DNA from: Oscillatoria sp.
GTDB taxonomy: Bacteria > Cyanobacteriota > Cyanobacteriia > Cyanobacteriales > Laspinemataceae
NCBI GenBank assembly: GCA_011390515.1
Contig: JAABSJ010000022.1
Location: forward strand, 1-45,536
Direction of reading: 5' to 3'
DNA: 45,536 nucleotides
Each line of letters starts with the position of its first letter. Within the stretch, counting starts at the first letter, position 1. Under the pieces are notes generated by a model. It was not told the origin of the DNA, did not search any database, and worked only from the letters and a program-made list of their open reading frames with translations. Below are positions 6,928-22,932 of this stretch, one piece after another. The position numbers and the translations under genes were made by a program.

Positions 6928-9900
6928 ATGGTCATTCCCGTAGAACCCACCCCACTCTCATCCTCAAGAACTCGCCAATTGACTCCGATTAAATCCGTAG
7001 AGTCTAGTCAACCCAGCGCATCGACTCGCAATCCAGGGATTGTGTTGGAACTGCTCGATCTCGCCTGGAATCAGGACGATGAGACTATTCCTGAAACCTT
7101 TGAGGGGAAAACCCGTGCTACATCTGTGCAGAATCAGGAAAGTCATCCCCAAGGACAGTCTAAACCTGTTCGGGTTGAGGTGAGTTTTCGCCTAGATTCA
7201 GACCACTGGAAAGAGTTGATGCAATCAATGGCGATCGCCATTGAGGAACAACAATCCTGGCAATGGGAAGGTCGCCTGATCAGTGCGAATCCTCAAACGA
7301 GTCAGCAACAGTCGGTAGAAACTCCGGCGCAAACCGACCCTCCGTTGACCCGGGAAGTTGCCCGGGTCAAGGGTTGCTCAAACCGGAGTTCGTTTCATTC
7401 ACAAAGCGATTTCTCTGGGGGATGCCAGGGGGACCTTGACCCTGAACTGGATCATCCCAGTTCTGATTCATCCTACCTCACGGCGTTGGTGGAGATTCAG
7501 GAACAGTTATTGATGGCTGTAACCCCTGATTTCGAGAGTGAAACTCAGCTCTATCAAGAGATTCTACAACGACTGGCCCAGGTGTCTGGTGCAACGGGTG
7601 CCTACTTCTGGGAAACCCAGGGGACAGGGAATGGGGGGGGGACGGGTTTACGATCGCAGTGGTATGCGGACAATTTCCCCAGTCCGGGGATGGTCCCGAA
7701 TTTACCGGATTTAGAGCAGATCAGCGCCTCGGGGTTCCAGGCGATTTCTCTGGCGGTGGCGGAACTGCCGGAATCAGACCGGTCTTTTTTTGCCGATCGC
7801 CCGATCGCCTCGATTCTGCTAATTCCCGCCATTGCCGATGACTGTTGTCGGGGATGGATGGGGTTGGAGTATCCCCACCAAAACCCGGTCAGTCCGGGGG
7901 AAATCTCGATATTGCAAACCGCAGTCCGGGCGATCGCCGCCGATCGACGACAGTCTCAGGGAGATATTCAGGGGAGTGGTTTATTTTCTGTCCCAGAACC
8001 CTGGGGGGCGATCGCCCTGCTAGACCCCGAGGGAACCCTTCTGGAGATTGAAACCCTGGGGAACAGAGGCGGTGGTGATTCCGGGATGGCAGAGGACGTG
8101 GGTCTGCCCTTTTGGAACAATCGAGGGTGGAGTCCTCCTGAATGCCAGGAAACTTGCCATCAGAGTCACGAGACACAAGAACAATTAAAGCAGGCGATCG
8201 CGACTGCGGCGGAGGGGAAATTCGTTCGCAGTTACTTTGAACTCGACTTACGCAACGGCAGCAGCAAGGGGGTGAATTTTTCTATCAAACCTGTTTTTGA
8301 TCGCCATCATCAAGTCTTGTTCTTGATTTGGAAGGGACTCAGGGCGATCGCACCGGACCGGGTTCAGACATCGGAAGAATCATCGGAAGCACCGGAGAGT
8401 CTGACATCGGATCCGAATCCTCGGGATTGCCCGGGAGTAGAACCGATTCCATTACAATCCTCGATGTTATTAACCGTCGAATTGAGACAATCGCGGTCCT
8501 GCATTCGCAAACCTCATCCGACATCCGCTCATCGGGACGCCTCAACCGGATTGTTCCTCAAACATCCCAAACACCCGAAGCACATTCGGGTGAGGATTCC
8601 CACGCGAACTCAACGGAATCTTGAGGGGGAGCCGATCGCCTCTGGATCGTGGCTGGAGCGGGGTGTAAATGAAGCCTCCGATGCCATTGCCATCACCGAC
8701 CTCCACGGGACTCTCACCTATCAAAATAGAGCATTTCAGGAACAATTTGGATATAGTCGTGATGAAATCAATGCAGCCGGAGGGATTTGCCAACTGTACG
8801 GCACTCCCGAACTCGAACGCGAAATTTGCCAAAGCGTCCGCCGAGGGTATCGTTGGTGTGCAGAAGTCTTGTTACAAACAAAAGACCGAACCGGCAAGCG
8901 GGCCTGGTTGCGAGCTCATCCGATTCCCGATGAAACCGGCGCAGTTGTGGGGATTTTTAGTATTTATACCAATATTTTAGAGGCGATGGACGGGGATTGC
9001 GCGGGAGAACCCTGGTCGCAATGCGATCGGTCAAATCAGAAGTGCCTCGATCGCCTTCAGGAAAGTAACCGACGCTTGCAATTAGCCCTCGAAGGCAGCA
9101 ATTTGGAATTATGGGATTGGAATCTGGAGACGGGAGATTTGTTTATTGGGAAAAAATGGCGGGCGATCGCCGACTGGTTGCCCGATGAAACCCTGAATCC
9201 GGTCCAATCCTGGCGCAGACTGATTCATCCCGATGATTTGCCTCGGGCGATCGCCGACTGGAACCACCATCTCAACGGCGGGGTTCCGGTTTGTGAAATT
9301 GAATACCGAATTCGCACCAAAACCGGGCAATGGCAGTGGATTCTCGACCGGGGTAAGGTGGTAGAACGAGATTCCCAGGGCAAAATACTCCGGATATTAG
9401 GGACTCACAAAGATATCACTCCCCGCAAACAGTACCAAGAAGCTCTGGAAAAGGAACGTCTGCAACTGCGAGAAATCATCAATCGCGCACCTGTGGCGAT
9501 GGCAATGCTTGATCGCAATCTGCGCTATATTGCCCATTCTCAAAAGTGGTTCAGTGATTACAATGGCGATCGCTGCGGCAACCCTCCTTCCTGGATCGGA
9601 TGTCACTTTTTTGACGTGATACCGGATCTGTTTGAACGCTGGCATCCCCTGTTAGATCGGGTTCTCGCCGGAGAAGCCTTTTCTTCCCGGGAAGATTGCT
9701 GGGAACGGGCTGACGGGTCTAAACTCTATCAGCGTTGGGCGATTCAGCCTTGGTACAGTCCCACTGGGGATGTTGGAGGAATTGCCATTGTCACGGATAA
9801 TATTAATGAACTGGTGGAAGCTCGGGAAACTGCCCTAGAAGCAGCCCGAATCAAATCCCAATTTCTTGCTAACATGAGCCATGAAATTCGCACCCCCATG

Positions 9901-12030
9901 ACTGGGGTGTTAGGCATGACGGGTTTATTATTACAAACCCCACTTTCTAATCAGCAACGGGATTGTGCTGAAACCATCCGCATCAGTGGGGAACATTTGT
10001 TGCGGGTCATCAATGATATTTTGGACTTTTCAAAGCTGGAAGCCGGAGAAATGAATCTCGAATCTTTAGATTTTCAACTGTCAACTTGTATTGAAGAAGT
10101 CGTGTATTTATTAGCGGCTCCAGCTCATGAAAAGGGGTTAGAATTAGCGGTCTGGATTGACCCGAAGGTTCCGCAACACTTAATCGGAGATCCAGCCCGC
10201 CTCCGTCAGATTCTGTTAAATTTGGTTAACAATGGGATTAAATTTACTCAGCGCGGGGAGGTGGTTGTTCAGGTCAATCAGTCGATGAAGCAGGAATCGT
10301 TAGATCCAAAAGGGCAAGAAGTTTGGCTGCGGTTTACGGTGCAAGATACGGGGATTGGTATCCCCAGTTCTCGCCAGAAAAAACTGTTTCAATCTTTTTC
10401 TCAAGTGGATACTTCCACCACCCGAAGCTATGAAGGGACAGGGTTGGGACTGGCGATTTGTAAACAATTGGTGGAACTGATGGGGGGCGAAATCGGGGTA
10501 GACAGTTACCCCGATCAAGGCTCTAATTTTTGGTTTGAACTCAAGTTTCGCAAACAGGGGACTCGGGTATCTGGTTCAATTCCCCGTTGTGCTCTGCCGA
10601 TGGCTTTCTCTTCGGTTAAGGTATTGGTGGCTCACCCGAGTGCCTCGACTCGTCAATCGTTACGATATCTAGCTGCAGATTGGGGAATTGGTCTTGATGA
10701 GGTGGAAAATTATAGCAAGTTGTGCCAGACTGTGCAAGAGGCAGCCACCGCAGGACAACCCTATCAAGTGGCGATCGTTGACCTCCATTTGCTCTTAGGA
10801 ATTGAGTGCGATCGCCAGGAGAACGGAGACTTTAAAGATGATTGTACAGATTGTAGCCTGAGTCACGAGTCTAATCCCGCCCTCGTCGAGGAATTTATTC
10901 AAAAATTATCCCCGTTTCCCCCAGAAACTTCCTTATTTTTGATGACAACCCTCCCCTATCGCGATCACGCCTTGGCACTGGTCCAATCCTCACAACAGCG
11001 GGGGTTGAGTTTTGTGGAAGGACATCTGGTCAAACCCGTGCGATCGTCCCAACTGTTGAATAGTCTGATGACTGTGGTCCTACGCCCGCAAACCGTGGAG
11101 GATCAATCCGGGGGAGGCAGTCCCCCCGTTTCTCAACCCGCCCAAACCCCAGTGGAACCCCGGACTCCTTCCACGGTGAATATTTTAGTGGCGGAAGACC
11201 ACCCGATTAATCAACAGGTGATTCTCCACCAATTAGAGGCATTAGGCTATCAAGGGGAATGTGTGGAAAATGGTGTCGAAGCGATCGCCCGCCTCGGCCA
11301 AAAGCGCTACGATATCGTCTTAATGGACTGTCAAATGCCCGGATTAGATGGCTATCAAACTACCCAAGAAATCCGCAAACGGGAAGCAACTGGGTCCCTC
11401 TCCCCCTCTGCCGATGGCGATTCCTCGGACCCGTCCCCACCTCACAAAACCGTTGTCATTGCTCTCACGGCTCATGCCATGTCTGCGGAACGGGAGAAGT
11501 GTCTCTCCGCTGGCATGGATGACTATATCAGCAAACCCGTCCATCTGGATCACTTGAGTGCGCTTTTAGAACGGTGGATTGCTCGATCCGATCAGCCGAT
11601 CAACCCATTGAGTCAACCCCCAGAACCGGATTCCTCGACTCCGGATCTACCTGCGGATCCTGCCGAGGCGATCGCTTCGGACGACCCCCCCTCAATCAAC
11701 CTGAATCGTCTGGAAGAAGTCTCTCGCGGCAAAAAAGCACTCCAGCGCCGCTTGTTAGAGGCATTTGCCACCACAGCCACTGCGGATACCCAGGCGATCG
11801 CCTCCGCCATTCAAGCCAATGATTGTGTTAAGGTTGACCGGGTATCTCATCGACTCAAAGGCTCCAGTGCCAATGTCGGCGCGCAAGGGATGTCGGCCCT
11901 CGCTGAACAGATAGGCACTCTCGCTCGGGAAAATCGCTTATCTGAAGCCAACTCCCCTTTATCTCGCTTGCAAGCTCAATTACAGAGCGTTCGCGAGTTT
12001 ATTGACACTCATCTAACCGAGTTACCTTAA
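6928..12030 (+). CDS. Multi-domain hybrid histidine kinase with receivers and HPt
   Basis: This is a 1700-residue soluble sensor kinase with no membrane segment. The order is: low-complexity N-terminus, GAF (about 185-335), a weak PAS-like region (about 355-465), PAS (575-683), PAS_3 (715-836), PAS_4 (845-958), HisKA with phospho-accepting H985 (NMSHEIRTPM), HATPase_c (about 1090-1212 with DTGIGI and GTGLGLAI), a degenerate receiver, a complete receiver with D1467 (LMDCQMPGLDG), and a C-terminal HPt with H1641 (HRLKGSSANVG). The expected route is H985 to D1467 to H1641 and then to an unknown response regulator. The first receiver (about 1228-1375) has lost its acidic pocket (VLVAHPSAS) but keeps D1285 and the lysine in LVKPVR. 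A weak AAAGG lies before the ATG. A receiver-kinase follows 436 bp downstream and may belong to the same pathway. The signal is unknown. Confidence 0.92.
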   Translation: MVIPVEPTPLSSSRTRQLTPIKSVESSQPSASTRNPGIVLELLDLAWNQDDETIPETFEGKTRATSVQNQESHPQGQSKPVRVEVSFRLDSDHWKELMQSMAIAIEEQQSWQWEGRLISANPQTSQQQSVETPAQTDPPLTREVARVKGCSNRSSFHSQSDFSGGCQGDLDPELDHPSSDSSYLTALVEIQEQLLMAVTPDFESETQLYQEILQRLAQVSGATGAYFWETQGTGNGGGTGLRSQWYADNFPSPGMVPNLPDLEQISASGFQAISLAVAELPESDRSFFADRPIASILLIPAIADDCCRGWMGLEYPHQNPVSPGEISILQTAVRAIAADRRQSQGDIQGSGLFSVPEPWGAIALLDPEGTLLEIETLGNRGGGDSGMAEDVGLPFWNNRGWSPPECQETCHQSHETQEQLKQAIATAAEGKFVRSYFELDLRNGSSKGVNFSIKPVFDRHHQVLFLIWKGLRAIAPDRVQTSEESSEAPESLTSDPNPRDCPGVEPIPLQSSMLLTVELRQSRSCIRKPHPTSAHRDASTGLFLKHPKHPKHIRVRIPTRTQRNLEGEPIASGSWLERGVNEASDAIAITDLHGTLTYQNRAFQEQFGYSRDEINAAGGICQLYGTPELEREICQSVRRGYRWCAEVLLQTKDRTGKRAWLRAHPIPDETGAVVGIFSIYTNILEAMDGDCAGEPWSQCDRSNQKCLDRLQESNRRLQLALEGSNLELWDWNLETGDLFIGKKWRAIADWLPDETLNPVQSWRRLIHPDDLPRAIADWNHHLNGGVPVCEIEYRIRTKTGQWQWILDRGKVVERDSQGKILRILGTHKDITPRKQYQEALEKERLQLREIINRAPVAMAMLDRNLRYIAHSQKWFSDYNGDRCGNPPSWIGCHFFDVIPDLFERWHPLLDRVLAGEAFSSREDCWERADGSKLYQRWAIQPWYSPTGDVGGIAIVTDNINELVEARETALEAARIKSQFLANMSHEIRTPMTGVLGMTGLLLQTPLSNQQRDCAETIRISGEHLLRVINDILDFSKLEAGEMNLESLDFQLSTCIEEVVYLLAAPAHEKGLELAVWIDPKVPQHLIGDPARLRQILLNLVNNGIKFTQRGEVVVQVNQSMKQESLDPKGQEVWLRFTVQDTGIGIPSSRQKKLFQSFSQVDTSTTRSYEGTGLGLAICKQLVELMGGEIGVDSYPDQGSNFWFELKFRKQGTRVSGSIPRCALPMAFSSVKVLVAHPSASTRQSLRYLAADWGIGLDEVENYSKLCQTVQEAATAGQPYQVAIVDLHLLLGIECDRQENGDFKDDCTDCSLSHESNPALVEEFIQKLSPFPPETSLFLMTTLPYRDHALALVQSSQQRGLSFVEGHLVKPVRSSQLLNSLMTVVLRPQTVEDQSGGGSPPVSQPAQTPVEPRTPSTVNILVAEDHPINQQVILHQLEALGYQGECVENGVEAIARLGQKRYDIVLMDCQMPGLDGYQTTQEIRKREATGSLSPSADGDSSDPSPPHKTVVIALTAHAMSAEREKCLSAGMDDYISKPVHLDHLSALLERWIARSDQPINPLSQPPEPDSSTPDLPADPAEAIASDDPPSINLNRLEEVSRGKKALQRRLLEAFATTATADTQAIASAIQANDCVKVDRVSHRLKGSSANVGAQGMSALAEQIGTLARENRLSEANSPLSRLQAQLQSVREFIDTHLTELP

Positions 12031-12146
12031 ATCCAAAGGTCAAACGGTTAACCCACCCCCTCCGATTTTTTAACCGGAATTGAGTTGTTAATCAGCCCCT
12101 CTTGTCCAGGGGGGTTTGGGGGGATGGGTTGAGAATTCAAACGACC

Positions 12147-12161
12147 AGAAACCGGGTTTCT
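12147..12161. repeat. Dispersed palindrome AGAAACCGGGTTTCT, copy 2
   Basis: This is an exact copy of the palindrome at 5221-5235, located between the two kinase genes. Confidence 0.6.
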
Positions 12162-12211
12162 AGTCCTCACAGACTGGAGTAGAACGTCCATGTTTTGGCA
12201 ACCTCCCCAGG

Positions 12212-12327
12212 GGGAACATCTCAAGAAGGACAGTTGGCCCTCACCCTAAATCCCTCTCCCAACCCTTCGACTTAGCTCAGGGGGAGAGGGATTTAGGGTG
12301 AGGGCGACCCTTGAAGGAGATGCTCCC
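12212..12327. mobile_element. MITE of the GGGAGCATCTC family
   Basis: A 116-bp element is bounded by GGGAACATCTC and GAGATGCTCCC, an 11-bp terminal inverted repeat with one mismatch. Its core is a long perfect hairpin, with arms 12238-12260 and 12282-12304. The ends match the MITE inserted in the PIN toxin gene at 36833-36942. No clean target duplication is visible. Its hairpin could also stop transcription between the two kinases. Confidence 0.7.
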
Positions 12328-12466
12328 GAACCAGGTTATCAATGAGAATACCGATACTTTAACAGTAGCCGGTCTAAATTATCATAAAAATCAGGGTACA
12401 TTATGTTTAGAGTTCCAGGGCAACGGGAAAAAATTAAACGCAAAAATTATCAATGATAACTAGATT

Positions 12467-13744
12467 ATGGGTAAAATTTTAGCGATTGATGATGATATTA
12501 CGGTACAGATTGTTTTGCAAGACTTGCTTGAAAGTGAAGGTCATGATGTGGCGATCGCCTCCGATGGGGAGGAGGGTATCCACCAAGCAGAGCAACTCCG
12601 TCCCGATTTAATTATTTGCGACTGGATGATGCCTCAACTGGATGGATTAGCTGTCTGCAAGCACGTCAAAGCCAACCCCGCTTTATCCAGTACCTTTTTT
12701 ATTCTTTTAACCGCCCGCGAACTGGTGACCGATCGCGTGATTGGTTTGGACTCCGGGGCCGATGATTTCCTCTCTAAACCCATCGACACTGAGGAACTTA
12801 TGGCCCGGGTTCGCGCCGGTTTACGCCTGAGTAAAACCCTCAAGGATTTACAACGCGCACAGTCTCAATTAATCCAAAGCGAAAAAATGTCCAGCATTGG
12901 TCAACTTGTCGCTGGAGTCGCTCATGAAATCAACAATCCCGTTACCTTTATTTACAGCAATCTCAGTCATCTCCAAGACTATACCCAAGACTTAATTGAC
13001 CTGGTGCAGTTATATCAACAAGCAGTCAATCAACCCAGTGATGCGATTCAAACCAAACTCGACTCCATCGATTTGAATTTCATGTTGCAAGATTTACCCA
13101 AAGTTATTGGTTCCATGCAACATGGGAGCGATCGCATTCGTAAAATTGTCCTATCTCTCCAAGAATTCACCCATTTTGAACGCTCCGGACTCCAGTGCAT
13201 TCAAATCAATGAAGCCCTGGAAAACACCTTGTTAATTTTAGGTCATCGCTTGCAATCCAACGAAACTCATCAACAGATTCAGGTGATTAAAAATTACGGA
13301 AAATTACCCTCGATTGAATCCTACGCCGCCCAAATCAATCAAGCCTTTTTACAAATCCTCAATAATGCCATTGATGCCATAGAAACGACTCCTCTGCACT
13401 CCGCTTCTCATCCAGGTTGTTTGACCATTAACACTGAAAGTTTGAGCGAAAATAGAGTTTCAATTCGGATTGCCGATAATGGTCCGGGAATTCCCGAATC
13501 CGTTAAATCCCAAATTTTTGACCCATTTTTTAGTACAAAATCCGTCGGTTCAGGAACCGGACTCGGATTATCAATGGTTTATCAAATTGTCGTGCAGCAA
13601 CATCAAGGAACCATTGAATGTATTTCTCATCCCCAAAAAGGAACCGAATTTAAAATAGAATTACCCATTCGGATTCAGTCGGCTAAAGCGAGCGATCGGC
13701 CAGGTATCAAAACTGAAGATTTTCCCTTGCAGCAACCCGAGTGA
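12467..13744 (+). CDS. Receiver-histidine kinase fusion
   Basis: This is a 425-residue cytoplasmic protein. An N-terminal receiver (residues 3-120) has the acidic pocket DDD at 8-10, phospho-acceptor D52 ([12 protein letters not shown]) and the conserved lysine in LSKPID. A coiled-coil linker leads to a HisKA domain with H153 ([11 protein letters not shown]) and a HATPase_c domain ([19 protein letters not shown]). The order REC-HisKA-HATPase means kinase activity is probably controlled by phosphorylation of its own receiver by an upstream kinase or HPt. The large HPt-containing kinase just upstream is an obvious candidate donor, but that is inference. Genes of this layout are common in filamentous cyanobacteria. 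Confidence 0.92.
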
Positions 13745-13898
13745 GAAATAGTAAATCACAGGAAGTTGTAAATTTATCCCCCGCCTGTAGGGGCGATTCG
13801 AGAATCGCCACGACTCCTAAATCCCGTCCATAGTTCTAATTTCAGACGAATTTAAGTTAAGCTAAAACTAGAACCTACTCTTTCCCCTAACAGTGCTG

Positions 13899-15071
13899 AT
13901 GTCCGATCGCCCCATTTATCTCGACTGTCATGCCACCACCCCGGTAGATCAACGGGTGATGGAGGCGATGTTGCCTTATTTTACCGACTATTTCGGGAAT
14001 CCTGCCAGCATCAATCATCAATATGGATGGGAAGCAGAAGCTGCCATTCAACAAGCTAGAGAGACCCTAGCGGATGCCATTCATGCCTCCCCAGAAGAAA
14101 TTATTTTTACCAGTGGTGCAACGGAAGCTAATAATTTAGCCATTAAAGGGGTGGCGGAAAGTTATTTTCAAAAAGGACGGCATATCATTACGGTTCAAAC
14201 GGAACATAATGCCGTTCTCGACCCCTGTGCCTACTTGGAAACTTTGGGATTTGAAATTACTTATTTGCCGGTTAAACCCGATGGATTGCTAGATTTATCC
14301 GAATTAGAAAATGCCTTGCGTGCGGATACGGTGTTGGTATCTGTAATGGCAGCAAACAATGAAATTGGCGTTTTACAACCGTTGGCAGAAATTGCGTTAC
14401 TCTGTAAAGAAAGAGGGATTATTTTTCATACAGATGCCGCCCAAGCGATTGGTAAAATACCCCTGGATGTGCAGGAGATGCAGGTGGATTTAATGTCATT
14501 AACCGCCCATAAAATTTATGGACCAAAAGGGGTGGGTGCACTCTATGTTCGTCGGCGTAATCCTCGGGTGAAAATTGCGCCTCAGATTCATGGGGGAGGA
14601 CATGAACGGGGATTGCGATCGGGGACCCTGTATGTGCCTCAGATTGTCGGATTTGCCAAAGCGGTGGCGTTGGGATTGGCAGAAATGGAGTCAGAATGCG
14701 ATCGCCTGATGACATTGCGACAGCGGTTATGGGAACAATTGCAATCTTTGGAGTCGGTGTTTTTGAATGGTCATCCCACCCAACGATTAGCGGGTAACTT
14801 AAATATTAGTGTGGCGGGAGTGGATGGTCAAGCGTTGTTGTTAGGACTACAATCGGTGATGGCAGTGTCATCAGGTTCCGCTTGTACTTCGGCAAAAATT
14901 GCGCCATCTCATGTGTTGGAGGCAATCGGGCGATCGCCAGAGTTGGCATTTGCTTCAGTGCGATTTGGCATCGGGCGATTTAATACGGTGGAGGAGATTG
15001 ATAGAGTGGCGCAACAGGCGATCGTCACGATTGAATCGTTACGGAAAGTGCGGGGAGGATTGGTGAGGTAG
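13899..15071 (+). CDS. Cysteine desulfurase, NifS/IscS family
   Basis: This PLP-dependent class V aminotransferase-fold enzyme takes sulfur from cysteine for iron-sulfur cluster and thio-cofactor assembly. It begins RPIYLDCHATTPVD. The PLP lysine is K205 (SLTAHKIYGPKG), and the catalytic cysteine is C329 in the loop SSGSACTSAKIAPSHVL, which resembles group I (NifS/IscS) enzymes. The length is 390 residues from the ATG at 13899. An in-frame GTG at 13893 would add two residues, and neither start has a clear ribosome-binding site. No iscU, nif or suf gene is adjacent. The stop codon lies inside a direct repeat whose second copy closes the following two-gene cassette. Confidence 0.93.
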   Translation: MSDRPIYLDCHATTPVDQRVMEAMLPYFTDYFGNPASINHQYGWEAEAAIQQARETLADAIHASPEEIIFTSGATEANNLAIKGVAESYFQKGRHIITVQTEHNAVLDPCAYLETLGFEITYLPVKPDGLLDLSELENALRADTVLVSVMAANNEIGVLQPLAEIALLCKERGIIFHTDAAQAIGKIPLDVQEMQVDLMSLTAHKIYGPKGVGALYVRRRNPRVKIAPQIHGGGHERGLRSGTLYVPQIVGFAKAVALGLAEMESECDRLMTLRQRLWEQLQSLESVFLNGHPTQRLAGNLNISVAGVDGQALLLGLQSVMAVSSGSACTSAKIAPSHVLEAIGRSPELAFASVRFGIGRFNTVEEIDRVAQQAIVTIESLRKVRGGLVR

Positions 15072-15128
15072 AGGGATGAACCACTGATTTCACGGATTTT
15101 CACTGAGGGATTTGGGGATTTGATTGAG
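15065..15128 (+). repeat. Direct repeat flanking the ATPase/DUF4276 cassette, left copy
   Basis: This copy starts GAGGTAGAGGGATGAACC, identical for 18 bases to the right copy at 17121. After a 4-base gap it continues nearly identical through TTTCACGGATTTTCAC and GGATTTGGGGATTTGAT. It covers the stop codon of the cysteine desulfurase. Read on the minus strand, it also preserves the frame and stop of the adenylate cyclase 3' end seen in the right copy. Confidence 0.85.
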
Positions 15129-15142
15129 AGTGAGCCTAAAAC

Positions 15143-15171
15143 TTGACAATTGCCACACAATACTTGAATAT
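15143..15171 (+). promoter_or_regulatory. Possible promoter of the ATPase/DUF4276 cassette
   Basis: TTGACA (15143-15148) is followed 17 bases later by GAATAT (15166-15171), about 94 bases before the ATPase start. The cassette would then carry its own promoter just inside the left direct repeat. Confidence 0.35.
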
Positions 15172-15264
15172 TTCTAATATTTTCTATTTCCAGATAATTA
15201 AACCCCCAAAACCCTACAATTTTCAACCTGATATCATTTCACACCCTAGCCACCCCTGAACATT

Positions 15265-16476
15265 ATGTTTTCACGAATAACATTGGAGAACTTTTTCAGT
15301 TTCCGAGGTCCAACCACCATAGAACTGAATCCCGGTCTGAATATTCTGTTGGGAATTAATGGCAGTGGAAAATCCAATTTACTCAAAGCCATTCAGCTAT
15401 TATCCCAGTCGATTATTGGGAATGGCTTGGAATTCATATTTTTAAAGACCTGGGGCGGATTTCCCACGGTAGCAAATTTTAATGCCTATGAGAAAGACTA
15501 TATTAAATTATGTTTTGAATTTAATAAAGAAGTCATTAATAGCATAAATAATCACCAAGGGTTTCAATTTCGGCAGAATCCCATTTATGAACTAACGATT
15601 TATAAGGTGGGGTTAACGTCTTATGGGGTAGCCGAAAAATTATATTCTAAAAATTTTCCTAACCCTGATTTTATTTTTATGGAAATGAATAATGCTCAGG
15701 GAATAATTTCTACAAGGGAAGAGGGAAGGGTTGGCATCCAAAAATACCCCCAAGACCATCAAAAAGTTACTTTCAAATCAACTGAGCCGGTTTTGAGGCA
15801 AATTTCCGATCCAGAAAGATTCTATCCCCTGTTTACCCTGAAAAGAGCCTTAGAATCTGCTGCTGTCTATTCTGATTTTGATACAACTTTTTCTAGTCTC
15901 ATCAGACAACCTGCCAACTATGGCACAGAGACCAAGTTATTGCCTGATGGACAAAATTTAATAACAATTCTTAATAAAATTAAAAATATTCATTCGCTCT
16001 CCTATGAGAAAATTGAAGAAGCCATTCAGAAAATCAATCCCTTTTTCAAGGATATTAATTTTGATTTTATCGGTTCCAAGTTATATCTAGTTCTTCGGGA
16101 AAAGAATTTAAGTCGGTCTGTTTCTATTGACCAGATTTCCGATGGAACGCTGCGCTATCTTCTGTTGTTATCTGTATTATTTAACCCCGAACGGGGCAAT
16201 CTAGTCTGTCTTGACGAACCGGAAACTAATCTTCATCCGGACATGATTAATACGGTTGCGGAAGCCCTGAAACAAGCCTCAAAAGAGACTCAAATCATTC
16301 TGACGACTCATTCACCCTTGCTCCTGAATTTATTTGAGCTAGAGGATGTCTTGGTTTTTGAAAAAAACGAGGGCAATGAAACGGTCGTCAATTACAGTTT
16401 TTCGGATGAAGTGGATGAAGATGTTTTGGTGGGACAAGCTTGGTTACAAGGGTTGATAGGTGGCAAGCGATGGTAG
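15265..16476 (+). CDS. OLD/RecF-like ABC-type ATPase of a two-gene cassette
   Basis: This is a 403-residue ATPase of the AAA_21/AAA_15 group, ABC-type and related to RecF, SMC and OLD. It begins with the family's usual MFSRITLENFFSFRG. Walker A is GINGSGKS at residues 30-37. An ABC signature-like ISDGT lies at 291-295, Walker B LVCLDEPE with D317/E318, and the switch histidine in LTTHSP at about 349. The middle part (about 60-280) is diverged and AT-rich. It overlaps the downstream DUF4276 gene by 7 bases, so the two are translationally coupled and probably act as a complex. Such pairs resemble class 4 OLD/PARIS-type abortive-infection systems, in which the ATPase senses infection and a TOPRIM partner acts as effector. 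That role is inferred from family and layout. The gene is more AT-rich than both neighbours. Confidence 0.85.
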   Translation: MFSRITLENFFSFRGPTTIELNPGLNILLGINGSGKSNLLKAIQLLSQSIIGNGLEFIFLKTWGGFPTVANFNAYEKDYIKLCFEFNKEVINSINNHQGFQFRQNPIYELTIYKVGLTSYGVAEKLYSKNFPNPDFIFMEMNNAQGIISTREEGRVGIQKYPQDHQKVTFKSTEPVLRQISDPERFYPLFTLKRALESAAVYSDFDTTFSSLIRQPANYGTETKLLPDGQNLITILNKIKNIHSLSYEKIEEAIQKINPFFKDINFDFIGSKLYLVLREKNLSRSVSIDQISDGTLRYLLLLSVLFNPERGNLVCLDEPETNLHPDMINTVAEALKQASKETQIILTTHSPLLLNLFELEDVLVFEKNEGNETVVNYSFSDEVDEDVLVGQAWLQGLIGGKRW

Positions 16477-17135
16477 TCAATGTGACAATTTATATTGAGG
16501 GGGTCTACTCAGAAAATCCTTCGGTATTAACTGTTGATAATACGGCTGTTTTTCGGGAAAACTTTTATAAATTATTATCTCAAAAGCTATCCCCTGACGA
16601 CTTTAATCTCATCATTCAACCCTTTGGAAGTATCAGCCAAACCAAAAAATATCTTGAATTGATAGAAAAGCACCATTCTAATGCAGTTATTCTCATTGAT
16701 TTAGATGGGCCAAAAGAAAAAATACCCGAAAGATTGGCGCGATATCAACCGTTTGATACAACCCGGATTTTTTTTATGATCCAGGAAATGGAAGCGTGGA
16801 TACTGTCTCAAGTTGATAAAATTGAAGAATTTGGGAAGAGTGAAGGATTGACTCGAAAAAAAGAAAATCAAGATATCGGCAGCAATCCTTTACTTAAAAA
16901 TAAACATCCGGAAGAGATTGACAAGCCTAGTGAAAAATTAAAAACTCTGTTCGGCCAATATTTTGAGTCGGTAAAAGTTGTTAGGGGACAACAGAGAACA
17001 AAAAAGAAACAATACTCGAAAGCTAAGGATGGACCAAAATTAATAGGATTGCTGGATTTGGAACGGTTGATGGAGGATTTTGATGAAGTTGAGCGATTAA
17101 TTGATTATATCGGCTCAATTGAGGTAGAGGGATGA
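16470..17135 (+). CDS. DUF4276 TOPRIM-like partner of the ATPase
   Basis: This 221-residue protein matches DUF4276 by its ordered motifs: IYIEG with E10, VILIDLDGP with D77 and D79, and IQEMEAWILS around 104-113, followed by a lysine-rich segment (KKKQYSKAKDGPK) and a leucine-rich C-terminal helix. A single Glu then D-x-D is the metal-binding pattern of TOPRIM nucleases, so it could be the effector half of the pair. The start is the ATG at 16470, with AGGTGG about 7 bases upstream and a 7-base overlap with the ATPase stop. An in-frame TTG at 16440 is less likely. The last four codons and the stop lie inside the right direct repeat. Nuclease activity is not demonstrated by sequence alone. Confidence 0.75.
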   Translation: MVVNVTIYIEGVYSENPSVLTVDNTAVFRENFYKLLSQKLSPDDFNLIIQPFGSISQTKKYLELIEKHHSNAVILIDLDGPKEKIPERLARYQPFDTTRIFFMIQEMEAWILSQVDKIEEFGKSEGLTRKKENQDIGSNPLLKNKHPEEIDKPSEKLKTLFGQYFESVKVVRGQQRTKKKQYSKAKDGPKLIGLLDLERLMEDFDEVERLIDYIGSIEVEG

Positions 17136-17188
17136 ACCCAACCACGGATTTCACGGATTTTCACGGAAGGATTTGGGGATTTGATGGA
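17121..17188 (+). repeat. Direct repeat flanking the ATPase/DUF4276 cassette, right copy
   Basis: This is the counterpart of 15065-15128. It contains the stop codon of the DUF4276 gene and, on the other strand, the last codons and stop of the adenylate cyclase. Both outer genes therefore end inside a copy of the same sequence. Confidence 0.85.
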
Positions 17189-19185
17189 GGAAAATCGGGA
17201 GTTTGGTCGATTAGCCAGTAGGTGATCATTTGTCCTTTTCCTTTGATGGTGATGGGTCCTCGTTTTTGGAATAGAAATTTGTGTTGTAGGCGATTATAGG
17301 TTTCGGTGGTGACTTGAATTTTACCGGGAAGGCCGGAGGATTCCATGCGGGATGCGACGTTTACGGTGTCTCCCCAGAGGTCGTAGATGAATTTTTTGAG
17401 GCCAATGACTCCGGCGACGACGGGTCCGGTATTGATGCCGATTCTGATTTGAAAGTGTTGGCCGGTCATGATGCAGAAGTCTTGGACGGCTTGCTGCATT
17501 TCTAGGGCCATTTCTGCGATCGCCTCGGCGGAATCAGAACGGGGGACGGGGAGTCCCCCGACGACCATATAGGCGTCGCCGATGGTTTTGATTTTTTCTA
17601 ATCCATATTTTTCCGCAAGGCGATCGAAGGTGGAAAAAATGTGATTTAGCCATGAGACTAATTGGATGGGAGAGACGCGAGAGGAAAGGGTTGTAAATCC
17701 TACAATATCGGCAAATAAAATGGTGACATCGGGGAAATAGTCGGCGATGGCGGTTTGATTGTCTTTTAACCGTTTGGCAATGGCGGCAGGGAAAATATTG
17801 AGTAATAATTGTTCCGATTTTTCTTGTTCAGCTTGGAGTGCTTGGGTGCGATCGCGGACTTTTCGTTCGAGCGATCGCGAATATTCGGCCAGTTGTTCAT
17901 GAGAGGATTTGAGTTGAGCACTCATCTGATTAAAGGCTTTGGCTAAGGTCCCCAATTCATCGGACCGATCGACCCAAACCCGGCGTTCAAAATCCCCATT
18001 GGCGATCGCCATACTCGCTTGACTCAGTTGCCACAACGGATAGGTAATCCATCGCGCCGTGATTAACCCCACCCCAATCGCGACAATTAACGCCACCAAA
18101 GATAACTGAATGGTGGTGCGGGTATTCACCTGAATTCGTTCCATAAAATCGGATTCGGGCACCACTACCACAATCAACCAATCCAAGTTTTCCCCATCGG
18201 AAAATGGCACAACTTGGACAAATTTGAGGTCCCCTTTTATCTTAAAGGCTAGTTGCTGGGGAGCGTTAATCTGAGTCAGGTCTCCAAAATAAGTCTTTAA
18301 ATACTTCGCGCTTTCCCGGATTAACAAATCCTCGACCTCTACTGCGGCAATTCGATTCACCCGATCGCCTTCGATTTGATAGGGAAGTTGTGGGACTGAA
18401 GTCGCCACCAACAGTCCCGATCGCTCCATAATAAAGGTCTGTCCAGATTTGCCAATCTTAATCGTTTCTAAAAATTCCCGAATATGGGATAACACAAAAT
18501 CCACTCCTAAAACCCCGCGCAAAATTTCCCCCTCTTGATAAAGCGGTTGTGCCAAGGTAATTTTCAGCCTGGGGTCTTTAAAATCCACATAAATATCACT
18601 CCAAATCGGTTGATTGGCCTGCACCGCTTTCTCATACCAGGGACGAATTCGCGGGTCATAAGGATTACCAGACTCTAATAATTCCCCCGGATTGCCGAAA
18701 TTGTCAACGGCGTAACTGTGAAAATTTCCCCCAGTAGAACGACCGGCGCGACCAATTTCCCATCGGTTATTATTTTGAAAGCCTAATCCGATAAATTCCC
18801 CATCAGCACCTCCTAAATAAATCGCTGAAACTGTAATGCGATCGACTAAATTTCGCTGACGCCAAAATTGCCGAGTTAGACTGCCTGTATCTTGGGAATT
18901 CAGGTGACCTAAATCGAGCGCATTAGCATTAATTTGATTGATCACCCGAGGCGCTTGCAAATAATCCCGCAACTGGGTCTCAATCCGTGCGACAATTTCA
19001 GCGCGTAACTGCGCTGCCAGGTCATTAACCGCTTGTTGTCCATTTTTTAAAGATAACCAACCCGTCAATCCCACTGCCACGGAAATTTGCAGGACAAATG
19101 GGACGACGAGCACCAGACGGATTGGGAATTTCCAGGTCTGAAACAGACGTTTGGGATTCAATCTTAAATTGCGTGTCACGCTCAT
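17161..19185 (-). CDS. Membrane class III adenylate cyclase with dCache sensor
   Basis: This is a 674-residue inner-membrane enzyme that makes cAMP. The order is TM1 (about 22-46), a periplasmic dCache-type sensor (about 50-345), TM2 (about 355-378), HAMP (378-432), coiled coil, then the catalytic domain (about 490-650). Metal aspartates are in ILFADIVGF and TIGDAYM. The adenine-selecting residues are the Lys in KIKTIGDAYM and the Asp in IYDLWGDTVN, and the catalytic Asn and Arg follow in NVASRM. Guanylate cyclases carry Glu and Cys at those two selecting positions. The start is the ATG at 19185, with AAGGGG six bases upstream. The in-frame TTG at 19269 has no such site and abuts a MITE-like element. 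The signal is unknown. The 3' end lies in the direct repeat shared with the cassette. Confidence 0.92.
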   Translation of the reverse strand: MSVTRNLRLNPKRLFQTWKFPIRLVLVVPFVLQISVAVGLTGWLSLKNGQQAVNDLAAQLRAEIVARIETQLRDYLQAPRVINQINANALDLGHLNSQDTGSLTRQFWRQRNLVDRITVSAIYLGGADGEFIGLGFQNNNRWEIGRAGRSTGGNFHSYAVDNFGNPGELLESGNPYDPRIRPWYEKAVQANQPIWSDIYVDFKDPRLKITLAQPLYQEGEILRGVLGVDFVLSHIREFLETIKIGKSGQTFIMERSGLLVATSVPQLPYQIEGDRVNRIAAVEVEDLLIRESAKYLKTYFGDLTQINAPQQLAFKIKGDLKFVQVVPFSDGENLDWLIVVVVPESDFMERIQVNTRTTIQLSLVALIVAIGVGLITARWITYPLWQLSQASMAIANGDFERRVWVDRSDELGTLAKAFNQMSAQLKSSHEQLAEYSRSLERKVRDRTQALQAEQEKSEQLLLNIFPAAIAKRLKDNQTAIADYFPDVTILFADIVGFTTLSSRVSPIQLVSWLNHIFSTFDRLAEKYGLEKIKTIGDAYMVVGGLPVPRSDSAEAIAEMALEMQQAVQDFCIMTGQHFQIRIGINTGPVVAGVIGLKKFIYDLWGDTVNVASRMESSGLPGKIQVTTETYNRLQHKFLFQKRGPITIKGKGQMITYWLIDQTPDFPPSNPQILP

Positions 19186-19273
19186 AGTTGACCCCTTAGC
19201 GGGAAGAATTGCGGACCCGTCTTTGACCCTCGGGTTGGTCTGGAAATAGTCTAATATAGACTCTCTCAAGTTG

Positions 19274-19376
19274 TAAGCTGTTCACTGTCTAAATTGGGAA
19301 GCAGAAAATCATGAAACCTTGGGAGTGCGAGCATCTTGCTCGCTAACAGTACCCAATTTAACTGCCGAACAGCTTA
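19274..19376. mobile_element. MITE-like element with TAAGCTGTTC ends
   Basis: A 103-bp segment has imperfect terminal inverted repeats of about 25 bp. The left end starts TAAGCTGTTC and reads to AAATTGGG; the right end starts CCCAATTTAA and ends GAACAGCTTA. A small internal hairpin (GCGAGCA with TGCTCGC) lies at about 19327-19343. It sits about 90 bp upstream of the adenylate cyclase start. Confidence 0.6.
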
Positions 19377-19503
19377 TCTATTTCCCAAACCCGAGTGAGT
19401 AGGTTATCCAGTTTCGGCTAAACAAGATAGAATCAATCTGCCTAATTTATTCCTTAATACAGATTAACTCGATGTTTTACCCTAGCCGGTATTCCCACTC
19501 GCA

Positions 19504-20691
19504 TTACCAAACCATTTGCGATCGCTCATTTACCACGCGATCATAAACCGCTTCGGTTTGTTGAGCCAATTTCGGCCAACTAAATCGCTGGTTTAAATCC
19601 GCATAAGCATTATCAATCAACCACTGAACATACTCTGAATTTTTCAAAACATCGAGGATTCCCCAGGCAAGGGAGTCGGGATTATTGGTCCAGGTGACCA
19701 CGCCGGTTTTGCTATGTTGGACCACCTCGGGTAATCCTCCGGTATCGGAGACAACCACAGGAACCCGGGCGGCAAAACTTTCTAAGGCGACAATGCCAAA
19801 GGGTTCATAGAGACTGGGGAAAACGGCACAATCGGCGACGGTTTGAAATTTGTGCAGGTCATCCTCAAACATGAAGCCGGTAAAATAGCATTTATCCCAG
19901 ATATTTAAGGCCGAGGCTAATTGTTTGAGGTGGTCAGTATTGCCACCGCCCACAATGGCAAATTTGACCAATCCTCCCATTTCCCAGAGAATTTTGGGGG
20001 CAGCTTTTAATAAAACTTCGACGCCTTTTTCATAAGTCATCCGACCGACATAATACACGATTTTTTCATGATCGCCTGCAAACTGACGGCGAAAGGTTTG
20101 GGCATCAAAATCCTGCCACCGGGGTTTTTTTTCGGCCCGGATGCCATTAAAAATGACGTCGATTTTATCCCAGGGACAGCCTAATGCCTGTTCCAGTTCT
20201 CGCCGCATATAATCGCTACAGACGATGGTCCGCCAGGAGTTGTACACCAAGTCTTGCTCTTTCTGGGCGATATACCCCTGGATCTCGTTATGAATGCCGT
20301 TGTTGCGGCCATGTTCGGTGGCGTGGATGGTGGCAATCAGGGGAATTTTAAAGTGGTGTTTGAGGGCGATCGCCGCATCGCCGACTAACCAATCATGGGC
20401 GTGAATCAAATCGAAGGGTCCTTCTTCTAAAATCAATTTGCCCCCATGAAGTCCCATACTCTCGTTCATGTTGGCCACCCAGTGGAAGAAGTCATGTCCA
20501 TGTTCGACGGGGACCCGATGCACGTCAATCCCTTCGAGTTGTTCATACATCGGGGCATGACCAAATTCCACGGTGATTAAATGGACGGAATGGCCCAATT
20601 TCACCAATTCCGGATATAATTCCGCAACGTGCCTTGCAATACCCCCGACAATCCGGGGAGGAAACTCCCAAGTGAGGACCAAAATTTTCAT
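19504..20691 (-). CDS. Glycosyltransferase family 4 protein
   Basis: This is a 395-residue GT-B fold retaining glycosyltransferase. It starts MKILVLTWEFPPRIVGGIAR, with the nucleotide-sugar loop glycines, like bacterial glycogen synthase-type GT4 enzymes. IHAHDWL lies near residue 95. The C-terminal half has YVGRMTYEKGVEVLL and the donor-binding motif PSLYEPFGIVALE (E-x7-E), then DTGGLPEVV. No signal peptide or membrane anchor is present. The acceptor sugar cannot be told from sequence; a polysaccharide or alpha-glucan role is possible. It is followed, in the same orientation, by a MITE-like element and the adenylate cyclase. The DUF2079 gene lies upstream on the same strand across about 110 bp that include a perfect hairpin. 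Confidence 0.9.
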   Translation of the reverse strand: MKILVLTWEFPPRIVGGIARHVAELYPELVKLGHSVHLITVEFGHAPMYEQLEGIDVHRVPVEHGHDFFHWVANMNESMGLHGGKLILEEGPFDLIHAHDWLVGDAAIALKHHFKIPLIATIHATEHGRNNGIHNEIQGYIAQKEQDLVYNSWRTIVCSDYMRRELEQALGCPWDKIDVIFNGIRAEKKPRWQDFDAQTFRRQFAGDHEKIVYYVGRMTYEKGVEVLLKAAPKILWEMGGLVKFAIVGGGNTDHLKQLASALNIWDKCYFTGFMFEDDLHKFQTVADCAVFPSLYEPFGIVALESFAARVPVVVSDTGGLPEVVQHSKTGVVTWTNNPDSLAWGILDVLKNSEYVQWLIDNAYADLNQRFSWPKLAQQTEAVYDRVVNERSQMVW

Positions 20692-20763
20692 CGACGCAGT
20701 TTACACAAGTTTAGATTTAGATAGAACTGTCATTTTGCAGCAGTGGTAACAACCGGCGGGGTG

Positions 20764-20803
20764 GCGATAATCGGCGGGGGTTAAAACCCCCGCCGATTAT
20801 CGC
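20764..20803. terminator. Perfect 19-bp-arm hairpin after the DUF2079 gene
   Basis: Arms of 19 bases (GCGATAATCGGCGGGGGTT and its exact complement) flank a two-base loop directly after the DUF2079 stop codon. There is no T-run, so it may be a repeat element acting as a 3'-end hairpin rather than a classical terminator. Confidence 0.55.
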
Positions 20804-22669
20804 TTACGCATCCGGTTGCAATAATGGCTCAATCTCTTCACGATACCGTTGCCATGCCGCTAATGCTGCTGAATTTGAGGGAGTTTGTCGGCGCATTAAA
20901 ATCACCCCCTGTTCAAATCCAATGATGCCATATTGGTTTGTGGCATGGAGTTGTTCGATGAAGGGGACTAAATCCTCAAAGAGCTCACGGTCATGTTTGA
21001 AGGCGGGGAGATATTGCTGGAGTTTCCACAAGTCGGCGATCGCATATTCGACGTTGACCTCTTCTGAAGCATCATTGCGGAACCTCATAAACGGAAAGCG
21101 CAGAATCTCTCGGCGTCCAGAGAGGGAAGGCACTAAATAGGTGGTCGCTGAAACACTGGCATCCGGGGGAATCTGGGAGGTTAAGTTGCGGATGTGGCGA
21201 CTATGTTCCCACTGCTGCGGCAGGGAAACGTACACCCAGGGGTTGATGGAGTCGGGAATAATAAAATAAAAGGTGCGATTGGGGTTGGAGGTAAAGGTAA
21301 ACAATAGGGACAACCCGATGCAAATGGCCCAAAAGCGCTGCATGGAAATTTTGAGCAGTTTGGGATGGGTTTCCCACCAGTAGTCGGCTTTTTTGCGGAG
21401 GGGTTCGAGGATGGTATTCAGGCGATCGCCCCAGGAGGCAATTTTGCCGGTTAATAAATTGGTGTCCGGTGTGTGGTGGGGTTCATTGATGGGGACGGGT
21501 GGTGGGGTGGGTTTATTCCAGAGTCCCTGACGAATCACGTCCCGGACTGGGGTTTGTAGGGACTGTTGCCGGTAGGACCACCAAAGAATTGCCCCATAAC
21601 ACAGACCCGGGACGACGGTCATGGCATAGCGGATATTAATGGATAAGGCGGTTTGACCTTGTTGTAAGAAAATCGCCAACAGGGGAAATCCGGCGATCGC
21701 CCAGGCACTGGGGGAGAAGGCGGGAATAAAGGCCAAGGGCAACCATTGTCCCAGGAGATACTTAATTTTTCCCCCGATTGGGGTAATAATCTCCCAAATC
21801 ACTAATCCCGGTTGGCTGATGAAGGCCCAGAGAATCTCCAAGGTGGTCGCTTCTTCTTTGTCTACATACTGCCCGAAGCGTTCAATGGTGAACCGGCGAG
21901 AAATATCGTCGGAAAATAGGGGCATGATCAGGTTGGTCAAGAGGGCGATATAGGTGAAGCTGAGGGTGCAAATGAGTAATCCCTGTTTGGGATAGCGTTT
22001 GCTGAGGGTCATGTAGACGCCGACGCCAAACAGGGAGATGCCGCCATCGGCGCGGACGGCGAGGATGCAGAGGGCGAGGGGCCAAAAGAGCCACCACCAG
22101 CGTTTTTCCATTGCCAACAACAGACTGAAGACAAACAGGGGCATCTGGAAGTTGTCATGGAAGTTGGAGAGGGTGGGACCGGCGATCGCATTGGCGGCAT
22201 AGTAGCTAACGGCAATCCAACTGGCGATCGCCGGTTGCAGGTAGACTCGGGCGAGGAGATAAAGCACCCCTCCAGCAGCGGTGACCAGGGTAACATGGAG
22301 CACGCTCAAGGTGACTGGAGAGGGAAACAGGCTGTAAATCGGTAGCCAGAGTAAGAGGGCCGGGGTAAAATGTTGTCCCAGACGGTGATAGGAAACGTCT
22401 GGGACTTCTTGATCGTGAACGACATTGGTGGACAGACCCGAGGAGAGCGAACTTTGAAACAACCGTCCCTGGGTGCTATTCCAAAAGACTTGGTTGAAAA
22501 TTCCTTGGTCAAAAGAGGCGTAAAAGGTGTAGTAGCGGTGGAGGGTGAAGACTAGGGTTACTACAAAGAAGGCGATCGCAACGGTCACCACCCACCGCGC
22601 CCCTGAATTTTTCTGCAAGTTTGACAACATTCCTCGCTTAAGTATTAAGAAAATGTTAAGGTTTGACAA
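20804..22669 (-). CDS. DUF2079 multi-pass membrane protein
   Basis: This is a 621-residue integral membrane protein with about ten hydrophobic segments. The family hallmark is near the N-terminus: FDQGIFNQVFWNSTQG, followed by HRLGQHFTPALLLWLPIYSL. An acidic residue just after the first helix and the loop/helix layout resemble GT-C glycosyltransferases and polyprenyl-linked sugar transferases, but the function of DUF2079 proteins is not established. The C-terminal 150 residues (PQQWEHSRHIRNLTSQIP onwards) form a soluble domain. It is co-directional with the GT4 gene downstream, which hints at shared glycan work. It is divergent from sasA across about 260 bp. Confidence 0.85.
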   Translation of the reverse strand: MSNLNIFLILKRGMLSNLQKNSGARWVVTVAIAFFVVTLVFTLHRYYTFYASFDQGIFNQVFWNSTQGRLFQSSLSSGLSTNVVHDQEVPDVSYHRLGQHFTPALLLWLPIYSLFPSPVTLSVLHVTLVTAAGGVLYLLARVYLQPAIASWIAVSYYAANAIAGPTLSNFHDNFQMPLFVFSLLLAMEKRWWWLFWPLALCILAVRADGGISLFGVGVYMTLSKRYPKQGLLICTLSFTYIALLTNLIMPLFSDDISRRFTIERFGQYVDKEEATTLEILWAFISQPGLVIWEIITPIGGKIKYLLGQWLPLAFIPAFSPSAWAIAGFPLLAIFLQQGQTALSINIRYAMTVVPGLCYGAILWWSYRQQSLQTPVRDVIRQGLWNKPTPPPVPINEPHHTPDTNLLTGKIASWGDRLNTILEPLRKKADYWWETHPKLLKISMQRFWAICIGLSLLFTFTSNPNRTFYFIIPDSINPWVYVSLPQQWEHSRHIRNLTSQIPPDASVSATTYLVPSLSGRREILRFPFMRFRNDASEEVNVEYAIADLWKLQQYLPAFKHDRELFEDLVPFIEQLHATNQYGIIGFEQGVILMRRQTPSNSAALAAWQRYREEIEPLLQPDA

Positions 22670-22932
22670 CTAACGCTCTGCTGCTTCAACAGGTTGAAAG
22701 TTGAGGTTCCGTTGAGTGGGTTTAGACCAGTCCGGAGGCCCTAGCTTTTTTCCTCCTGGGCAGTTAAGTCGTGACGAGAGTCGAATCCTTTGTACTCTTT
22801 CACGAATCGACAATAAACAGGATAATTTATAAATATAAAGAAAAACCAAAGAACTGCTAGGGCGATCGAGTTACTTGTCTCCAGATCAAAATCAGTGTTA
22901 CTTTTTTAGCCGCATTGCCGCAAGGGGATTGC

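Follow-up and report, generated by a model that had tools for sequence, protein, structure and literature searches.

The object of this study is a 45,536-nucleotide (nt) stretch of contig JAABSJ010000022.1 from Oscillatoria sp. (hereafter, the window; the draft genome comprises 376 contigs and is 87.5% complete), in which an ATPase gene and a DUF4276 gene form a small cassette between two direct repeats. The ATPase (AAA_21/AAA_15, ABC/RecF-like; 403 amino acids, aa; positions 15265-16476, plus strand) was recognized from its open reading frame (ORF), Pfam, PADLOC and a fold search of its model, and is of the HEC-01A type discussed below. The DUF4276 protein (HEC-01B type; 221 aa; 16470-17135, plus strand; ORF, Pfam and PADLOC) follows head to tail with a 7-base overlap, its ATG being at 16470, the start that gives the E10/D77/D79 numbering used here, and the ATPase stop ending at 16476. 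The left neighbor is an IscS/NifS-type cysteine desulfurase (13893-15071, plus strand) that ends inside the left repeat (15064-15128, target copy 1 in our reading), and the right neighbor is a Cache-HAMP guanylate/adenylate cyclase (17161-19269, minus strand; ORF and Pfam) that ends inside the right repeat (17120-17189, target copy 2), both repeats being delimited by their alignment. The sequence between the repeats has a GC content of 0.368 vs. 0.488 in the rest of the window, and 0 of 871 segments of the same length were equally low. The only plus-strand ORFs of at least 80 aa there are the ATPase and DUF4276 genes, a 105-aa minus-strand ORF starts between the repeats and runs into the desulfurase, and the listing of ORFs of at least 80 aa contains no recombinase or insertion sequence (IS) carried between the repeats. 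A promoter-like site (TTGACA, 18, AATATT; 10/12; a consensus match only) is located just inside the cassette at 15143-15172 (plus strand), one of two such sites in the 251 bases scanned vs. 0.7 in shuffled sequence, and the sequence TTGACAATTGC also precedes the gene in three genomes of the same genus (G002, G003 and G005). An Rfam scan of positions 14500-17800 returned no match up to E = 1.

The two repeats are identical in 61/70 aligned columns with one 5-nt gap (92% over the ungapped 50-nt part) and score 74 bits, whereas 300 mismatched flank pairs do not exceed 34.0. As an earlier note made from the sequence had described, not only for the repeats but also for the gene overlap, the desulfurase terminates within the left copy (stop at 15069-15071), the DUF4276 gene and the minus-strand cyclase both terminate within the right copy (stops at 17133-17135 and 17161-17163, respectively), and the left copy read backwards keeps the frame of the cyclase tail (QSNPQIPQ-stop vs. 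PPSNPQILP-stop). The right repeat encodes the C-terminal EVEG of the DUF4276 protein, and the relative in another genome (G013) has a different end. Inside both copies, however, lies a 28-nt core, AACCAC(N)GATTTCAC(N)GATTTTCACGGA, that was found at 19 places of the genome with E<0.01, the two window copies included, and a 17-mer gave 18 matches with at most one mismatch vs. 0 for the reversed control. It could hence be argued that two copies of a dispersed intergenic element flank the pair by chance and that the cassette never inserted as a unit, and dispersed-looking repeats indeed flank the pair at five loci elsewhere (L184, where the repeat is a CACAGAG-type element, L217, L218, L225 and L232). 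The core alone proves nothing because it belongs to a dispersed element. The window copies, however, match over 65-70 nt, a span that takes in the end of the desulfurase on the left side of the core and the frame of the cyclase tail on the right side, whereas 0 of the other genomic copies align left of the core, four (L007, L009, L011 and L015) extend to the right at 77-83%, and the desulfurase-end letters were absent from the 17 listed of the 20 other core copies. Because both copies also share these neighboring-gene ends, we read the window repeats as a target duplication despite the dispersed core. Chance flanking, which we consider very improbable, is also contradicted by the single copy at the site in four cassette-less congeners and by Nostocales, Desulfonema and Sphingobacteriales records in which the repeat is a piece of a neighboring protein gene or its leader.

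These congeners come from a search of 39 genomes, the window's own (G000) included, of which eight (G000-G007) belong to one genus. The DUF4276 subfamily of the window is present in 4/8 of them. The cassette adjoins the desulfurase in G000, G002 and G003, while in G005 the DUF4276 gene adjoins the cyclase and the desulfurase lies ~67 kb off in the orientation that an inversion would give. Two repeat copies are found in 3/4 carriers, and in the fourth, G005, the rearrangement removed the left copy. Each of the four cassette-less genomes has a single repeat copy at the site: G006 and G001 show the desulfurase, one copy and the cyclase (degenerate in G001), and G004 and G007 the desulfurase and one copy (decayed in G007) with the cyclase absent. 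Relatives with one repeat and no cassette, the comparison proposed by the earlier note, thus exist within the genus, and a second lineage provides them as well (below). The note's proposal that a junction was duplicated when an AT-rich cassette entered is upheld by these empty sites; its further assumption of a desulfurase/cyclase ancestry is not required. Specifically, G002 lacks the cyclase but carries the cassette with two repeat copies, of which the left one is shortened, and a right flank like that of G004, so the ancestral junction may have had another makeup. The G005 block (L094, L095) comprises the cassette, the cyclase and the glycosyltransferase, inverted relative to the desulfurase, with the left repeat missing and the desulfurase end altered. 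The cyclase itself is polymorphic in the genus (a degenerate form in G001 and none found in G002, G004 and G007), and the desulfurase-glycosyltransferase interval is therefore a variable spot.

Among the four carriers, the cassette genes differ by 8-15% compared to about 5-11% for host genes, which indicates that the insertion is old or has since been exchanged. In the local tree, the outgroup G009 falls within the genus, which prevents gain of the cassette from being distinguished from its loss; one gain plus one loss and two gains fit equally. Excision of the cassette between the repeats is possible. The left and right copies of the same genome differ at 4/64, 0/64 and 4/43 positions, and copies of different genomes at 2/64 to 7/43, which is only suggestive of homogenization of the two copies within a genome.

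The two proteins were assigned to families by profile searches. The ATPase matches AAA_21 (110.6 bits) and AAA_15 (77.6 bits) of Pfam, and the partner matches DUF4276 with 41.3 bits vs. a cut-off of 30.2. The best PADLOC models are HEC-01A for the ATPase (PDLC04177, E = 1.2e-65, residues 2-403) and HEC-01B for the partner (PDLC04201, E = 8.4e-13 over residues 11-225, weaker than canonical copies), judged by E-value rather than by PADLOC's own cut-offs. By these profiles, the pair is a divergent member of HEC-01, a candidate system of PADLOC-DB, and not of PARIS. The view of the earlier note that this may be a less-described defense unit is hence half right: the models do make it a candidate defense unit, yet its kind is already listed by PADLOC as HEC-01. 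The ATPase adjoins DUF4276 in 78/80 related loci kept from genome contigs.

Two alternative functions were considered. Pfam calls AAA_21 a putative AbiEii toxin domain, and two overlapping, mobile genes would suit a toxin-antitoxin unit, with the DUF4276 protein restrained by the ATPase and the pair kept by addiction and anti-phage only incidentally; in PARIS, the nearest characterized analog, deletion of either gene is however non-toxic according to passages of PMC9122126, and we regard this alternative as quite unlikely. Fold matches of the ATPase model, on the other hand, list chains of the PtuA complex first (best E = 1.3e-14), followed by SMC and Rad50, and this resemblance to Rad50 and SMC heads, together with a cell-cycle role reported for an archaeal OLD-family ATPase (PMC12796447), could indicate a DNA-repair or housekeeping unit of SMC/RecF type rather than a defense system. 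The patchy occurrence of the pair, polymorphic between species, and the presence of three HEC-01 pairs at separate sites in a single genome argue otherwise; no fixed synteny of the kind expected of a housekeeping family was found, and we deem the housekeeping alternative distinctly improbable.

The DUF4276 protein is probably a metal-dependent, TOPRIM-like nuclease. 54/54 aligned sequences are invariant at E10, G11, D77, M103, Q105, M107, E108, W110 and K184, and position 79 is D in 45 and E in 9 of them. In a confident model (pLDDT 91.6), predicted strand 1 ends at E10 and strand 3 at D77. A strand order in which strand 1 leads to E and strand 3 to D is that of the TOPRIM domain. A TOPRIM-like fold is plausible only (see below).

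DUF4276 was matched in 26/386 cyanobacterial genomes, and the spread of the window subfamily crosses phyla. The window protein shares 63-68% identity with records of Prochloron, Thiomargarita, Parabeggiatoa and Desulfobacterota, a level indicative of horizontal transfer, and this spread suggests exchange in mats and sediments. Sulfur bacteria and sulfate reducers are represented among the records of the subfamily and so, at a greater distance, are Bacteroidota.

To assess recurrence of the scar, sequence spanning the left border (ATPase start; 630 base pairs, bp) was compared with sequence spanning the right border (DUF4276 stop; 660 bp) at 76 HEC-01 loci. Flanking repeats of at least 36 bits, a cut chosen after seeing the maximum of 34.0 in the 300 mismatched pairs, were found at 12/76 loci (rows that include one locus twice, as G013 and L114, and related genomes) vs. 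6/936 random placements of the same size at other positions of the loci (Fisher p = 2e-10). Counting each target site with a match once gives 7/71 (p = 8e-6); this count collapses matching loci only and is safer than the per-locus count, related genomes being non-independent. Three loci account for the six random matches, which at two of these loci are of low identity and resemble paralogues. The start of the right copy lies no more than about 50 bases from the DUF4276 stop, L112 excepted, where the stronger of two blocks lies 317 bases on (the other at 31), and between the end of the left copy and the ATPase start there are 15 to 156 bases. The duplicated targets include the mutS leader with its start codon (L172, L174 and L183, Nostocales) or the upstream part of this leader (L180, Nostocales), the start of an NQR2/RnfD-family gene, namely its first codons with the ribosome-binding region (L159, a Desulfonema record; 155 bp with 0 mismatches), the first codons of mnmE (L164, 24 bp), the 5' part of the next gene (L112) and the leader of the next gene (L123); at L184 the repeat is the CACAGAG-type element mentioned above. 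Pfam confirmed MutS, the RnfD family and MnmE as the targets.

The mutS site offers a second set of empty and filled alleles. In the Nostocales genus of G182, DUF4276 lies within 1.5 kb upstream of mutS in 6/16 genomes; in G081 it is missing there, yet an ATPase-like fragment remains upstream of mutS. When G182 is aligned to the empty G413, the left match, 94.6% over 1466 bp, extends nine bases into mutS and the right match resumes 134 bases before mutS. That is, about 143 bp of target are doubled in G182 and single in G413, and the empty G410 gives the same picture. G416 shows a shorter duplication at mutS, and no left-side match to the two empty genomes was obtained for G176, G412, G101 and G094. 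In a second cyanobacterial set, 8/24 loci reach 36 bits (a 25th, L237, was excluded for having no ATPase, and L223 is the same record as L174); four of the dispersed-looking cases mentioned above (L217, L218, L225 and L232) belong here, the right copy of L239 is 564 bp off, and L227 and L234 are new mutS cases, while L230, also upstream of mutS, falls below the cut.

As a control, 30 cyanobacterial AbiEii loci, 24 with enough flank, were treated alike, and 6/24 reached 36 bits, no different from the HEC-01 rate (p = 0.36). This control is rough because its borders were guessed from ORF adjacency and the partner gene was not found at three loci (L262, L281 and L285). Among the six matches, the repeat at L267 is a paralogous coding stretch and that at L281 seems to be another, L285 is 68% identical, and L258, L262 and L271 are scar-like (3/24, p = 0.001 vs. 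random placements). The latter three are bounded by direct repeats of 103-199 bp. AbiEii loci showing flanking repeats at a similar rate, the scar is ruled out as a property specific to HEC-01.

One could also view the repeats as attachment sites and the cassette as a remnant or trans-mobilized passenger of a site-specific integrative element at gene ends. Some integrases use gene ends as targets, the target gene end is restored here in the same manner, and the 199-bp repeat bounding L271 has an end that resembles the 3' end of a tmRNA. No integrase lies between the window repeats, however, the repeat length varies from 24 to 155 nt with unrelated genes as targets, and DUF4276 has no match in plasmids or phages by tblastn and none in viral contigs; this explanation is, in our view, unlikely.

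Small defense operons are often gained and lost, many of them outside recognizable mobile elements. We consider it likely that the cassette is a divergent HEC-01 unit, with a predicted ATPase-held nuclease, that entered by insertion with long target duplication. Under this reading, the unit would have entered the chromosome as a bare transcription unit, from its own promoter to the DUF4276 stop, duplicating ~65 bp of the target such that the desulfurase and the right-hand neighbor stayed intact. Template switching, break repair that copies the cassette, or crossover with a target-carrying circle are possible routes to such a scar, and recombination between the repeat copies could delete the cassette cleanly, giving the single-copy allele of the relatives, and may also homogenize the copies. 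Since related units elsewhere show the same kind of scar, mobility of this small cassette may not depend on a recombinase gene that it carries itself. Defense and nuclease activity are predictions, and we infer excision as well as the molecular steps by which the cassette inserted. The ATPase complex would keep the DUF4276 protein inactive; sensing of a phage product or damaged DNA by the ATPase would license the DUF4276 protein to cut nucleic acid and thereby stop the phage or the cell. A nuclease held by the ATPase and released on infection is the most likely scheme by analogy to PARIS, where, in passages of PMC12409363, AriA sequesters AriB until a trigger binds.

Several observations weigh against this interpretation. 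The age of the cassette roughly equals that of the split between its carriers, and no recent movement is seen here. The literature searched yielded no plaque or nuclease data for HEC-01; several HECs, HEC-06 among them, are said in PMC12988326 to be active. For the TOPRIM-like character that the earlier note gave to DUF4276, profile comparison with OLD-TOPRIM yields a weak match (hhalign, 46%, E = 2e-4, DxD in register), which is nevertheless higher than those of DUF4435 (2.5%) and of the window ATPase as negative control (1.5%) to OLD-TOPRIM by this method; DUF4276 vs. DUF4435 reaches 1.5%. It is not confirmed by Foldseek of the model, with no PDB match at E<=0.001 and no TOPRIM-named entry among the 50 listed, and the sequence search of the PDB with the DUF4276 profile returned only two response regulators (E = 1.4). 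Further, the seven flanking ORFs scanned with Pfam (6928-24114) include no dedicated defense neighbor, being sensor kinases, the desulfurase, the cyclase, a glycosyltransferase and a membrane protein. PADLOC assigns the label DndA/SspA to the desulfurase (3e-178) and PycC to the cyclase (1e-11), but NCBIfam places the desulfurase above the IscS-subfamily cut-off (555.5 vs. 548) and below that of DndA (438.7 vs. 480). Given this result and a desulfurase match at E<=1e-100 in 38/39 genomes, we read the window desulfurase as housekeeping, and both PADLOC labels are probably cross-matches of housekeeping enzymes. A DUF4277/DDE transposase lies in an AT-richer stretch at 34646-36268, ~17 kb from the cassette.

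Compared to known systems, the pair shares with HEC-01 the same two genes in the same order, adjacent on one strand, and differs in being divergent, the other two pairs of the genome scoring about 1e-180 and 1e-81. These near-canonical pairs are located on C220 (L104:3156-4945) and C34 (L238:5428-7232) of the same genome, and next after the C34 pair comes a protein of 890 aa that matches PDC-M37B/DolB/IetA, with a mad3-like protein nearby. The best sequence and fold matches of the window ATPase are to PtuA of Septu and retron Ec78. The partner of PtuA is the HNH nuclease PtuB, and no PtuB-type gene lies beside the window pair. PARIS (AriA/AriB) likewise combines a separate ABC ATPase with a putative TOPRIM-type partner, and the ATPase profile matches AriA chains (8e-10). 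The PARIS rule, as worded in PMC9122126, calls for an AAA_15 (32 bits) or AAA_21 (27 bits) ATPase plus DUF4435 (27 bits). The window ATPase would qualify with the bit scores given above, but the partner is DUF4276, with no match to PF14491 (DUF4435) at E<=1 in it and none in the 87.5% complete genome; PARIS is therefore excluded, and the PARIS-like layout with a different partner that the earlier note had noticed holds.

The closest likeness in mode of movement is to insertion with long target duplication, although literature listings on flanking repeats of defense systems contained nothing that we recognized as relevant. Nobusato et al. reportedly described this type of insertion in 2000 for restriction-modification genes of Helicobacter pylori. 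Restriction-modification systems of all types can insert with long, variable target duplications, linked to inversion or translocation, according to passages of PMC3031569, and passages of PMC1643837 and PMC4978471 concern the same pattern. The window shares with it a gene unit between long, variable direct target repeats, the link to rearrangement (G005 being rearranged at the left repeat), empty relatives with a single copy (G001, G004, G006 and G007; G413 and G410 vs. G182) and no recombinase or IS between the repeats; it differs in its cargo, HEC-01 instead of restriction-modification genes, and in the lineages, cyanobacteria and others. A more speculative and rather doubtful extension is that HEC-01, AbiE-type and restriction-modification units share one recombinase-free movement, in which bare operons settle beside housekeeping genes with a 24-155 bp target duplication that restores the neighbor, often with the neighbor's leader or start copied before the operon, and stay deletable between the copies; the defense proteins themselves, being DNA-acting ATPase-nucleases, could promote it. 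With pairs of empty and filled alleles from two cyanobacterial genera, and with scars of this kind at mutS, rnfD-like and mnmE genes elsewhere, the movement of such operons becomes directly testable; these cases extend the restriction-modification pattern to another candidate defense unit, and provide a simple way to delimit such cassettes.

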